A DNA stretch of 64,000 bases from Nostocales cyanobacterium LEGE 12452 (GTDB lineage: Bacteria; Cyanobacteriota; Cyanobacteriia; Cyanobacteriales; Nostocaceae), in NCBI GenBank assembly GCA_015206945.1, contig JADEXV010000003.1, positions 1 through 64,000 of the forward strand, written 5' to 3'. The position numbers and the translations under genes are program-made. Positions 4,901 through 63,161 of this stretch are shown one piece after another (the first letter of the stretch is position 1; every line of letters begins with the position of its first letter). Under the pieces are notes generated by a model, which was not told where the DNA came from, ran no database searches, and saw nothing but the letters and a program-made list of their open reading frames with translations.

Positions 4901-5524
4901 TTATTTAAACAAAACAGCTTCAATATCATTTAAAGCAGTTTCAAAATCGTCATTAACGATTCTAAGATCAAATTCATCTGCGGCTTGAATTTCTTCTTGG
5001 GCACGGAGCAGACGACGGGCGATCGCTTCTTCAGAATCTTGGGCACGAGAGCGTATTCGTTTCTCTAATTCATCAAAGGAAGGCGGTAAAATAAAAATGC
5101 TGAGGGCACTGGGGAAGGAAGCACGAATTTGTCTTGCTCCTTCTAGTTCAATTTCCAGCACCACCAACTTACCAGCATGAATTTGGTTAAGTACAGCTTC
5201 ACGGGGGGTGCCGTAATAGTTACCAGCAAATTCTGCCCATTCTAAAAATTCACCTTCAGCAACTAATTGCTCAAACTTACTGCGGCTGATAAAGTAATAA
5301 CTTTTGCCATCGATTTCCCCTGGACGGGGAGAACGAGTTGTGACGGATACGGAATAATAGAGTTCTGGATGACGCTCTAGGAGCGATCGCATTAAAGTGC
5401 CTTTACCGACCCCACTGGGGCCAGTTAAAACAATTAACCTGCCTAAATGTAAGCATTCTTCGGTAGTTGCACTACTCTGGATGGGTAAAACTGGCATCAT
5501 CCCTTCAACCTGTGAATCAATCAA
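4901..5524 (-). CDS. gmk: Guanylate kinase
   Basis: A 207-residue guanylate kinase, which phosphorylates GMP to GDP with ATP. The P-loop GPSGVGKGT lies at residues 35-43, the GMP-binding strand [20 protein letters not shown] follows, and the lid/adenine part carries [14 protein letters not shown]. The first about 28 residues precede the enzyme fold and may be partly untranslated; a downstream Met (residue 9 or 10) is an alternative start. remA lies 141 bp upstream on the same strand, the same remA-gmk order seen in Firmicutes and cyanobacteria. Confidence 0.95.
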
Positions 5525-56576: not shown

Positions 56577-56900
56577 TTACGAAGCTAATGCTACTTCTAC
56601 CTTTTCTTGCAATTCACCTTTTTGGTACAGTTCAATCAAGATATCAGAACCGCCAAGGAATTCACCATTGATATACACTTGGGGAATTGTCGGCCAGCTA
56701 GAGTATTCTTTAATACCTTGACGAATTTCAGGGTCTGATAGAACGTCAACCGTCTCAAAGGGAACTCCTAAGGTATTGAGGATCTGCACAACGTTGTTGG
56801 AGAAACCACATTGGGGCATTAACTTGTTTCCCTTCATGAAAACTAAAATCTTGTTTTCTTGTAGCAAGCTATCAATTTTGTCTTTGAGTTCTGGTGTCAT
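56577..56900 (-). CDS. grxD: Monothiol glutaredoxin (Grx4/GrxD type)
   Basis: A 107-residue monothiol glutaredoxin from the ATG at 56898-56900 ([20 protein letters not shown]); upstream residues are open but not conserved. The CGFS active site is in [14 protein letters not shown] (Cys31), and [20 protein letters not shown] binds glutathione. Such proteins carry 2Fe-2S clusters with BolA partners. A bolA-type gene lies 88 bp upstream on the same strand, the standard pairing. Confidence 0.95.
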
Positions 56901-56987
56901 GGTATTTATGTTTCCTATGTTGGATTCAACAGTGAGAAGTGAGAAGTAAGGAGTCAAAATTCATAACTCCTAACTTCTGACTCTTAT

Positions 56988-57245
56988 TTACGAAGTTGCT
57001 GTTGCTTGCCAAGCTTCGGGAGTGTATGTTTTCACCGCCAAGGCATGAATTGCTTCAGTTGACATAGCTTGACCCAAAGCACCATAAACTAACTGGTGCT
57101 GTTGCACTAGTCCTTTACCTGCAAAGTGCGATGAAACTACTGTCACCTGATAGTGGTCGCCGCCACCAGTCAAGTCTTGCACCTGAACCTGTGCGTCTGG
57201 CAGTCCCGCCTTGATCATTTCCTCAACCTGTTGCGGACTAATCAT
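56988..57245 (-). CDS. BolA family protein
   Basis: An 85-residue BolA-type protein. It contains [20 protein letters not shown], then [20 protein letters not shown] and [20 protein letters not shown], with the conserved Cys/His region of the BolA fold (His in QQHQLVYG). BolA proteins form 2Fe-2S complexes with CGFS glutaredoxins and take part in iron sensing or Fe-S trafficking. The adjacent grxD supports this. Start ATG. Confidence 0.93.
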
Positions 57246-60403: not shown

Positions 60404-60634
60404 CTAAATAGCGGCTTGGGCTAAAAGGGGATCGAGTTGACTTTGTGTGTCTAGCTGATATAGGTCATCGCAGCCGCCAATGTGCTGGTTATTAATAAAA
60501 ATTTGTGGTACAGTACGGCGACCGTTTGCGCGTTCTGCCATTTTCGCTCTGGCTGCTTCGTCACCGTCGATTTTGTATTCAGTGAAATTTACACCTTTCC
60601 ACCACAGCAGCATTTTGGCTCGAATGCAGTAAGG
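60404..60634 (-). CDS. grxC: Glutaredoxin GrxC, exon 2
   Basis: The 3' exon (76 residues) of a dithiol glutaredoxin, starting PYCIRAKMLLWWKG and continuing FTEYKIDGDEAARAKMAERA and VPQIFINNQHIGGCDDLYQL. It lacks its own start and its first active-site Cys. Joined to exon 1 (63078-63161) by splicing of the group II intron it gives a 104-residue protein with the CPYC redox centre. A database frame starting at the internal Met (60613) would be a non-functional fragment. Confidence 0.9.
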   Translation of the reverse strand, partial: PYCIRAKMLLWWKGVNFTEYKIDGDEAARAKMAERANGRRTVPQIFINNQHIGGCDDLYQLDTQSQLDPLLAQAAI

Positions 60635-60640
60635 ATTAAC

Positions 60641-62449
60641 CTAAGCCGAAGAGTCACCCCTCCGACTCGGCTTCAAAACCGGACGTGATGCTTTCACATC
60701 ATCCGGCTCCTCATTGGAACACCCTTTGTCACAGGTACTTCGACTGCCATCTTTGGCAGTCTTATCATCGTGGCAATGCCGATGTACAGCTTGTTTATTT
60801 TCACGATTATCCTTTCCGCCTTTTGACTTCGGGGTAATGTGGTCAACTTCGATTACATCGCTTGATTGGAAGAATAACCCACAAATGTTGCATTTACCTT
60901 TTTGGCGCTTCAAAAGGTATGCTAGGGATGGCTTGATTTCAGGATGTTTCCCAAGTCTGCTTGCCCAATATGATGTATTACCATCAAATGGACTTGCTGT
61001 ATCCCTAACTTTTGCATGGCGTAAAATTGGTGTTTCGCCGTGATTACGTAGGACGAATGCTCCCGCACCATCCCTGTTGGCGAAAGCCCAACTTCTATTA
61101 CCTACTGTTTTCCAATACTTCCTTTGTATCCAGCGTTTGCCCTTGTTGCCGTGTCTTCTGACAGCCCATCTTCTGAGCCTGAGATAAAGCAGATAGTCGA
61201 GCTTGTCGTAAGTTTCCTTGCTTGCTACCGAAGAGTAGTATTGAGTCCATCCCCTGATAATAGGATTGAGGGTTTTAATTAAGTCCGTCTGATTCCTACT
61301 ATTATTTTTGGAGATAATTTGACTCAATTTCCGGTAGTGGTTTTGGAGACTTTCGTCGCTGGGTTTGATGAGAGTTTTGAACCCAAGGCGATTCCCTTGT
61401 GTGTCTTTGGCTGAATTATGTTTACTTTGGGGGTATTGTCGAATGTAGAACCCAAGAAAATCAAATCCGGGTTTTTCTACTTCCTCCAAAGTGTGAGCCA
61501 TTCGGGTTTTCGTGTCTTTGAGTTCTAAACCTATTTCCTGTAGCCAAGAAACTGCTATTTCCTTGCATCTCATTACGATTTCCTTGTCTTCATGAAGTAT
61601 CACGAAGTCGTCGGCGTATCGTATGAGTACGGCATTATTTCGGCGGATTCTTTTACCTTTTTCGGTAGTTGAAATTCTTGGAAAAGTTTTTTGAATTACT
61701 TCTTCAAGTCCGTGAAGGGCGATATTAGCCAATAGTGGCGAAATAACTCCTCCTTGCGGTGTTCCACTTTTTGTTGGGAATAGCGCTCCTTTATCAATTA
61801 CCCCAGATTTTAGCCAAGCTTTTATTTGATACTGGATTTTACCAGGGGAATTGAGCTTTTCCAGCAGTTTCGAGTGGTTAATGTTATCGAAACAACCTGC
61901 TATATCCGCATCCAGCACCCATTTTGGTTTGTACCGAATGTAATTGAATATGGCAGAGATTGCGTCGTGGGATGACCTACCAGGACGGAAACCGTATGAG
62001 TTTGCCTCAAATTTGGCTTCCCATTCTGGTTCTAAAGCAAGTTTAACTAAGGCTTGGAGCGCCCTGTCATACATAGTTGGGATACCTAGCGGTCGTCTTT
62101 CCGCCTTTCCGGGCTTAGGAATCCAGACCCTTCGGGTAGGTTTTGACTTTCCGTTTATTTCCAATTTGTTGATAAGGGCTAACCGTTGGTGTGGTTTCAG
62201 GGATGATACCCCATCTACTCCGGCGGTTTTTCTGCCTTGGTTATCCTGCGTAACCCTTCTAACTGCTAGGGCTTTAGCTGACCAGGAACTCATCAGAAGC
62301 CTTTGGAGCTTGTGAGTCATTCTGACATCGCCACGCTTGGAAGCTCCATAGATTCGTTTTTGCAACTTGAAAACTTTCCTCTCGACTGTTCGCCAAGGGA
62401 TGTCCTTCCATTCATTCACCAATAATTTAGGTGCGTATGACGTATTCAT
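60641..62449 (-). CDS. Group II intron reverse transcriptase/maturase with HNH endonuclease
   Basis: A 602-residue intron-encoded protein. The reverse transcriptase domain has RPLGIPTMYDRALQALV and the active-site RYADDFVILHED; the maturase domain (X) follows around residues 330-420; and a C-terminal HNH domain has CNICGLFF, EVDHITPKSKGG and HRHCHDDKT. All look intact, so the intron is probably mobile. The last about 25 residues are read through domain V and VI of the intron RNA, ending six bases before the intron's 3' end, and may not be functional protein sequence. The protein acts with the intron RNA in splicing and DNA invasion. Confidence 0.95.
   Translation of the reverse strand: MNTSYAPKLLVNEWKDIPWRTVERKVFKLQKRIYGASKRGDVRMTHKLQRLLMSSWSAKALAVRRVTQDNQGRKTAGVDGVSSLKPHQRLALINKLEINGKSKPTRRVWIPKPGKAERRPLGIPTMYDRALQALVKLALEPEWEAKFEANSYGFRPGRSSHDAISAIFNYIRYKPKWVLDADIAGCFDNINHSKLLEKLNSPGKIQYQIKAWLKSGVIDKGALFPTKSGTPQGGVISPLLANIALHGLEEVIQKTFPRISTTEKGKRIRRNNAVLIRYADDFVILHEDKEIVMRCKEIAVSWLQEIGLELKDTKTRMAHTLEEVEKPGFDFLGFYIRQYPQSKHNSAKDTQGNRLGFKTLIKPSDESLQNHYRKLSQIISKNNSRNQTDLIKTLNPIIRGWTQYYSSVASKETYDKLDYLLYLRLRRWAVRRHGNKGKRWIQRKYWKTVGNRSWAFANRDGAGAFVLRNHGETPILRHAKVRDTASPFDGNTSYWASRLGKHPEIKPSLAYLLKRQKGKCNICGLFFQSSDVIEVDHITPKSKGGKDNRENKQAVHRHCHDDKTAKDGSRSTCDKGCSNEEPDDVKASRPVLKPSRRGDSSA
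60676..60709 (-). other. Domain V of the group II intron
   Basis: A 34-base hairpin read on the minus strand: GAGCCGGATGATGT, GAAA loop, GCATCACGTCCGGTTT. It has the catalytic AGC triad in the 5' stem and the GAAA tetraloop of canonical domain V. Confidence 0.9.
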
Positions 62450-63077
62450 TGCTACTTATAACTCTATGTTGTGTCCCAACGTGAGTCCGTCAGCATATCC
62501 TTGGCATTACCCAAGGCGTTGGCTTCTGACTCAATCTCTTCCGTTGGTCGCCTGATAATTCAGATTTGCGTCTTGGTTGACTGCTCAGAAATCGACCTTT
62601 CTGAGAGCTTCCAACGGATTAACTCGTTCCGAATAACCTTTTGACATATCCTTTAGGATGTCGCTACTCCACCGGGGGTATTTGAGTACCTGCATCAAGC
62701 AAAATGCAACACTTGAGCCTGACCCCACTGACATTTTGTCTACAGCTTATCAGCCACTTTAGCTGTTTCTTCTCTCACGATGGTTAAGACGACTTCGCTG
62801 TTCGCTATCCATTGGATACTACGCTAGACGGTGAACCAGATTGTGGCTCCTAGCTTCCCGCCATTCCTCCCCGCTTCACCTCCGACATACCAAGTCGGTC
62901 AGTGGGGGAGTGCAGTCACCATAGGTACTAATGGGGAGGGAATTTCACCCTCAAGGCTATTCAGTTGTCAATGAGTAGATAGTGCTTAAAGCGTGCGCCA
63001 CAACCCTTATTTGGGTTACTATCTACTACATCGCCCCGTATCCCCCGTTTTCACGGTTTCACAGGAACGAATCGCAC

Positions 63078-63161
63078 ACAAGTTTGCCAGGTGTAAAGTT
63101 CGACGTTGGCTTTGACTCGCTCTGGATGGCGATTTAAGAGGGGATTAAGAAAGTCCAGCAT
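63078..63161 (-). CDS. grxC: Glutaredoxin GrxC, exon 1
   Basis: The 5' exon encodes 28 residues, MLDFLNPLLNRHPERV then KANVELYTWQTC, ending with the first Cys of the CPYC active site. The intron follows directly after this TGT codon. The sequence matches the N terminus of Nostoc dithiol glutaredoxins as I recall them. GrxC reduces disulfides with glutathione. The membrane-protein gene upstream ends 48 bp before this exon, so cotranscription is possible. Confidence 0.88.

Follow-up and report, generated by a model that had tools for sequence, protein, structure and literature searches.

A complete group II intron at a poorly matched site between the CPYC codons of a cyanobacterial glutaredoxin gene

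A glutaredoxin gene of the Nostocales cyanobacterium LEGE 12452 (genome G000) is split within the codons of its CPYC motif by a complete group II intron, which raises the questions of how the element came to lie there and whether the gene can still deliver its product. The locus was analysed in a window of 64,000 nucleotides, this term designating the whole stretch of DNA under study, and was compared with genomes of the same genus, family and phylum. Its main features are the following, all on the minus strand:

63078 to 63161, minus strand: glutaredoxin exon 1, 28 codons, ending in ...ACC TGG CAA ACT TGT
60404 to 60634, minus strand: glutaredoxin exon 2, starting with CCT TAC TGC, 76 codons plus stop
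60635 to 63077, minus strand: complete group II intron, 2,443 nt, based on Rfam, fold and relatives
60641 to 62449, minus strand: intron-encoded protein (IEP), 602 aa, with reverse transcriptase (RT), maturase (GIIM) and HNH regions
60672 to 60712, minus strand: domain V (Rfam, 56.4 bits, over gathering)
60635 to 60671, minus strand: domain VI, with a bulged branch-point A at 60642 and overlapped by the IEP stop TAG (60643-60641)

An earlier, sequence-only reading had set the junctions after the TGT ending at 63078 and before the CCT TAC TGC starting at 60634; direct inspection of the sequence shows that they are exact, and that the intron lies between codons in the sense orientation of the glutaredoxin, as that reading had it. 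The GTGCG start, domains V and VI and intact RT that it had recognised were likewise recovered by Rfam, the D6 fold and Pfam. The intron begins with GTGCGATTCG at 63077 and ends with GGTTAAT at 60635, and its first bases (GTGCGATTCGTT at 63077), common to its relatives, agree with the GUGCG start of group II introns. The Rfam model Intron_gpII matched D5-D6 at 60711-60635 with 50.4 bits, over gathering, and the bulged A of the D6 fold at 60642 is found 8 nt before the intron 3' end, the usual distance being 7-8 nt. The fold of the first 628 nt beats 20 of 20 shuffles (z -5.8). The IEP has no internal stop, exceeds the Pfam cut-offs for RVT_N, RVT_1, GIIM and HNH (PF01844) as well as that of TIGR04416 (group II RT/maturase; 340.8 bits, cut-off 300), and its closest solved maturase is 6ME0 (E 8e-109, residues 12-571), which we take to be a Thermosynechococcus elongatus protein. 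The IEP reading frame extends through D5 and D6 (60712-60641), and its stop TAG, 6 nt before the intron end, is part of a TTAG that includes the branch-point A; a frame running through D5/D6 to TAG was observed in 21 of the 90 introns with an assigned stop, with the TTAG context in all 21. No second copy of the intron was found in the G000 assembly, where the next matches reach about 67%. Elsewhere in this genome (L065, 3572-7864, contig C125), one strand encodes a tandem of two distinct group II intron proteins.

Joining 63161-63078 to 60634-60404 restores a 104-aa dithiol glutaredoxin with a CPYC motif, which exceeds TIGR02181 (glutaredoxin 3; 121.9 bits, cut-off 90) and falls below the stricter NF007923 (121.1 against a cut-off of 129). 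Glutaredoxin 3 of TIGR02181 is presumably the protein named GrxC in E. coli. In Synechocystis, the name grxC is given to a monothiol glutaredoxin (PMC3816324, partial text). In two other species of the genus, an uninterrupted gene encodes exactly this protein. In G006, of the same genus, the glutaredoxin is continuous and 99% identical, with an intact empty site and conserved neighbours, namely a DUF981-type gene upstream and a deaminase-like ORF (tadA by eye) downstream. The exons show no decay: in a comparison with 30 intron-free genes of the genus (2 of 32 loci being skipped), a single change was unique to G000, and it is synonymous. These undecayed exons fit a working gene and a recent insertion equally. 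An exon change linked to the insertion was rejected, as the TGT/TGC and Thr codons vary among intron-free relatives. An assembly artefact was also discarded on the basis of the exact exon continuity, the lack of a second intron copy and the position of the locus inside a 100-kb contig. An intact second gene with the same exons, the possibility that the sequence-only reading had itself raised, was sought in the G000 assembly and rejected, the matches being C65 and a 64% paralogue at C546. About 3 kb from the interrupted gene, the window also contains a monothiol-type glutaredoxin (56577-57245, minus strand; QCGFS by eye, Pfam Glutaredoxin), which adjoins a BolA-like ORF (by eye).

The glutaredoxin was matched in all 53 genomes of the genus. 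In 51 the match ran unbroken across 102 or more of the 104 positions, with 91-100% identity, some of these 51 proteins ending naturally at 101 aa. The intron-split form occurs in G000 only. Thus, the expectation that related genes would be uninterrupted at CPYC was borne out, the exon ends agreeing with those of intron-free homologues. Another genome of the genus (G160; L214, reverse strand) has a continuous glutaredoxin with a one-base deletion frameshift, either real or a sequencing error. In the family, a close orthologue was absent from 12 of 145 genomes among the matches listed, two of the 12 being under 90% complete; the weak best matches were 61-69% paralogues in 11 and nothing close in G013. 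The idea that other genomes of the family sample also carry a split glutaredoxin was therefore rejected, since these 12 genomes have paralogues at most and G160 a frameshift. Among 217 genomes of the family and 386 of the phylum, G000 alone gave an exact match to the end of exon 1 followed by the intron start, in searches that detect only introns with this same start. The phylum search added inexact matches at L215-L218. Six of the inexact matches in the family were inspected: L157 is another intron of the same family, L152 is a fragment with the same start, and the other four have no match to the IEP.

Whether the intron belongs at this site can be judged from its guide sequences, the positions of which were found by covariation of the relatives with their own exons against exon-swapped controls. 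The predicted pairing elements are as follows:

62702 to 62707, minus strand: predicted EBS1 (GCATTT), at a loop position common to relatives
62770 to 62774, minus strand: predicted EBS2 (GAGAA), immediately after the conserved CATCGTNA
62666, minus strand: predicted EBS3 (T), by alignment, the alternative being G at 62667
63078 to 63083, minus strand: IBS1 (ACTTGT) in exon 1, pairing with EBS1 at 4 of 6 positions
63086 to 63090, minus strand: IBS2 (CTGGC), pairing with EBS2 at 2-3 of 5 positions, by register
60634, minus strand: IBS3 (+1 C), the first base of exon 2

For these relatives, 103 tblastn matches were reduced to 73, the glutaredoxin intron included, which were delimited by their conserved start; the 30 left out were incomplete, had no 5' motif or, in one case, duplicated the glutaredoxin intron. 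Both ends were delimited in 67 of the 73 (five lacked a 3' end and one had N runs), and, with 29 added loci of which 3 had no 5' motif, the wider set comprised 99 introns. These relatives are not independent, several copies coming from the same Planktothrix genomes. Over the exon-swapped controls, two places in domain I stood out clearly, the EBS1 column gaining 1.99 of 6 and the EBS2 column 2.11 of 5, with about 0.4 for the next best columns. The family shows a Watson-Crick pair between EBS3 and +1 in 56 of 67 rows against 28% expected, as is characteristic of IIB CL-type introns.

The guides of the glutaredoxin intron would suit TTCTC..AAATGC|A, and the real exon reads CTGGC..ACTTGT|C. One of the four EBS1-IBS1 pairs is a wobble and the mismatches fall at -4 and -5, while EBS3-IBS3 is T-C by alignment, or G-C if the neighbouring 62667 is EBS3. 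When each intron's own site was ranked against random window sites, 83 of 99 introns fell in the best 5% and the glutaredoxin intron at 29.5%; under another register rule, these values were 52 of 64 and 71%. Because the rank depends on the register rule, the claim is limited to a fit not better than chance: EBS1 and EBS2 have no better match in the flanking exons than at random sites, without the above-chance complementarity that marks a retrohomed insertion, and the same probably holds for EBS3. Nine of the 99 introns rank above 20%, the glutaredoxin intron included; four of the nine, the glutaredoxin intron among them, still lie in sense and four in antisense open frames, against 48 and 9, respectively, of the 73 well-ranked introns with flanks. 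The other eight poorly ranked introns are four distant ones (33-41% IEP identity), the guides of which were probably misaligned, and four of the same family (L082, L097, L105 and L132). The EBS1 stem includes CAAGT, complementary to ACTTG and out of register, a run of a length reached at 15% of random sites. Two weak controls are available: L157 has ACAAGT at the EBS1 loop position and forms 5 of 6 pairs with its own exon, and L152 lies directly 3' of exactly ACTTGT. Together they suggest that a guide truly matched to this IBS1 would resemble ACAAGT, not GCATTT.

The sequence-only reading had considered such an insertion unusual, as bacterial group II introns tend to avoid genes. As a general rule this agrees with reports that they are mostly intergenic (PMC4649490 and PMC6003770, both in partial text), but the relatives of the glutaredoxin intron behave otherwise. 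The flanks of 88 of the 99 introns could be used (11 had no usable flanks), and the rejoined exons gave an open frame of at least 110 aa in sense for 54 of 88 and in antisense for 13 of 88; at a cut of at least 120 aa, below which the interrupted glutaredoxin (116-aa frame) falls, the figures were 36 and 9 of 67. Pfam was run on 20 of 45 long junction peptides and 13 of the 20 matched a family: cytochrome oxidase subunit II (cox2), acetyl-CoA synthetase (acs), the ribonucleotide reductase small chain (twice), RlmL, a HAD hydrolase, glutamate-dehydrogenase-like, FAD-oxidoreductase-like and MmeI-type proteins, and four transposon-type proteins. One of the seven Pfam-negative peptides matched TIGR02505 (B12-dependent ribonucleotide reductase) at 80 bits, which for this 100-aa piece is below the whole-protein cut-off. 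Based on these sense frames and conserved host genes, insertion into a conserved gene is ordinary for this family. Three relatives (L126, L146 and L148, from Scytonema, Nostoc calcicola and Chlorogloeopsis) occupy the same codon of an apparent B12-dependent ribonucleotide reductase, L126 alone having been scanned. In Tychonema (L124; IEP match starting at 5001), an intron lies, by eye, inside the apparent RT frame of another group II intron, in a twintron-like arrangement.

Taken together, these data lead us to favour, as rather probable, a rare insertion by retrotransposition at a non-cognate site, followed by weak splicing that lowers or abolishes the output of one of several glutaredoxins. 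The intron would have entered the CPYC codons by low-frequency retrotransposition, not by retrohoming. In T. elongatus, poorly matched copies are described as likely retrotranspositions, and efficient splicing is expected of well-matched ones only (PMC2882425, partial text). Here the guides barely fit the exon, which makes efficient splicing doubtful, and weak excision would be expected because splicing depends on the same EBS1-IBS1 pairing. Little spliced mRNA would therefore be made, and the allele would yield mostly the truncated 36-aa product. In the RmInt1 intron, EBS1-IBS1 is the pairing critical for excision and IBS2 and IBS3 are dispensable (PMC3123198, partial text), so that splicing of the glutaredoxin intron may be reduced and not surely absent.

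The sequence-only reading had made the glutaredoxin fully dependent on splicing, and this stands for the allele, the frame of which ends after 36 aa if the intron stays in. It does not extend to the cell: G000 encodes an intact dithiol paralogue (CPFC; L069:1260-1532), a second member of the same family that likewise exceeds TIGR02181, and in Synechocystis every combination of glutaredoxin mutations is described as viable under standard growth (PMC3816324, partial text). Since this second glutaredoxin remains, the host may well tolerate the insertion. The CPFC protein, the gene of which adjoins one resembling a glutathione synthetase (by eye), is closer to Synechocystis GrxA than the interrupted one (137 vs 123 bits), and our guess, by elimination, is that GrxB (slr1562) is the counterpart of the latter. 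In the same account of Synechocystis, grxB mutants resemble the wild type. Loss of a glutaredoxin can nevertheless be costly there, the grxA and grxC single mutants being stress-sensitive, which speaks against tolerance being free.

The main alternative, which we regard as doubtful yet serious, is that the intron splices well in spite of its weak guide pairing, the maturase compensating, so that the insertion is nearly neutral. The intact IEP, D5 and D6, the undecayed exons and the number of relatives hosted by sense open frames (54/88) would suit it, and the insertion shares its sense orientation and its position between codons with relatives presumed to splice. As RmInt1 excision tolerates changes in IBS2 and IBS3, four EBS1 pairs of six and an intact maturase might suffice. 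However, the guides score at random level on their own site, and the -4 and -5 mismatches fall in the part of IBS1 where changes in RmInt1 cut excision to about 12-13%, a single change at -5 reducing it to 12% (PMC3123198, partial text). An improbable alternative is a mixed culture or polyploidy, with intron-free gene copies beside the occupied ones and splicing unneeded. Cyanobacteria are often polyploid, and the assembly consists of 551 contigs. Polyploidy in these organisms is also mentioned in PMC8919778 (partial text); yet no second locus with these exons was found in the assembly, where minor alleles are invisible. Very improbable in our view is a maturase that replaces guide pairing at the non-cognate exon, possibly under certain conditions only, glutaredoxin output then being conditional on splicing; if true, this would be a bacterial group II intron in a conserved gene working almost without EBS-IBS recognition. 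Finally, splicing as a redox or stress switch, the link that the sequence-only reading had suggested, is barely credible: nothing found supports it beyond the position in the CPYC codons, the target mismatch suggests an accident, efficient splicing is itself in doubt, and presence in one of 53 genus genomes argues against a conserved arrangement.

Under the favoured reading of a weakly spliced retrotransposed insertion, the locus is a clean natural experiment on how a conserved gene fares once a poorly matched group II intron has entered it; retrotransposed insertions into essential genes are described as detrimental (PMC2882425, partial text). It further adds evidence that the relatives of this intron depart from the rule for bacteria, most of them lying in open frames in sense. 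Judged by titles and the beginnings of abstracts, a literature search on group II introns, cyanobacteria and glutaredoxin found no paper about such a case. Among the matches listed, no other IEP in 217 family genomes exceeds 62% identity to that of the glutaredoxin intron, and none in the 80 genome-collection loci kept, of 303 matched, exceeds 61%.

Several known systems provide points of comparison. The TeI introns of T. elongatus share the IIB-type EBS1/2/3 logic and include copies at poorly matched sites described as retrotranspositions (PMC2882425, partial text). Those copies are mostly intergenic, whereas the glutaredoxin intron lies in a conserved coding gene, in sense and between codons, and its IEP is nearest to those of other cyanobacterial introns (61-62% identity, among the matches listed). 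CL-type introns are reported to have expanded in the Cyanobacteriota, with insertion seemingly unrelated to terminators (PMC8919778, partial text); the likeness of the present intron to this type is based on the EBS3-+1 pairing in its family. The group II introns and twintron of Trichodesmium erythraeum likewise interrupt conserved protein genes that need splicing, which was demonstrated in vivo, whereas the glutaredoxin intron is known from sequence alone and its guides misfit (PMC4649490, partial text). An intron within a conserved gene is thus not exceptional, given these precedents and the frequent sense insertions of its own family, and the case represents a known kind of element found at a site that is new and poorly matched.
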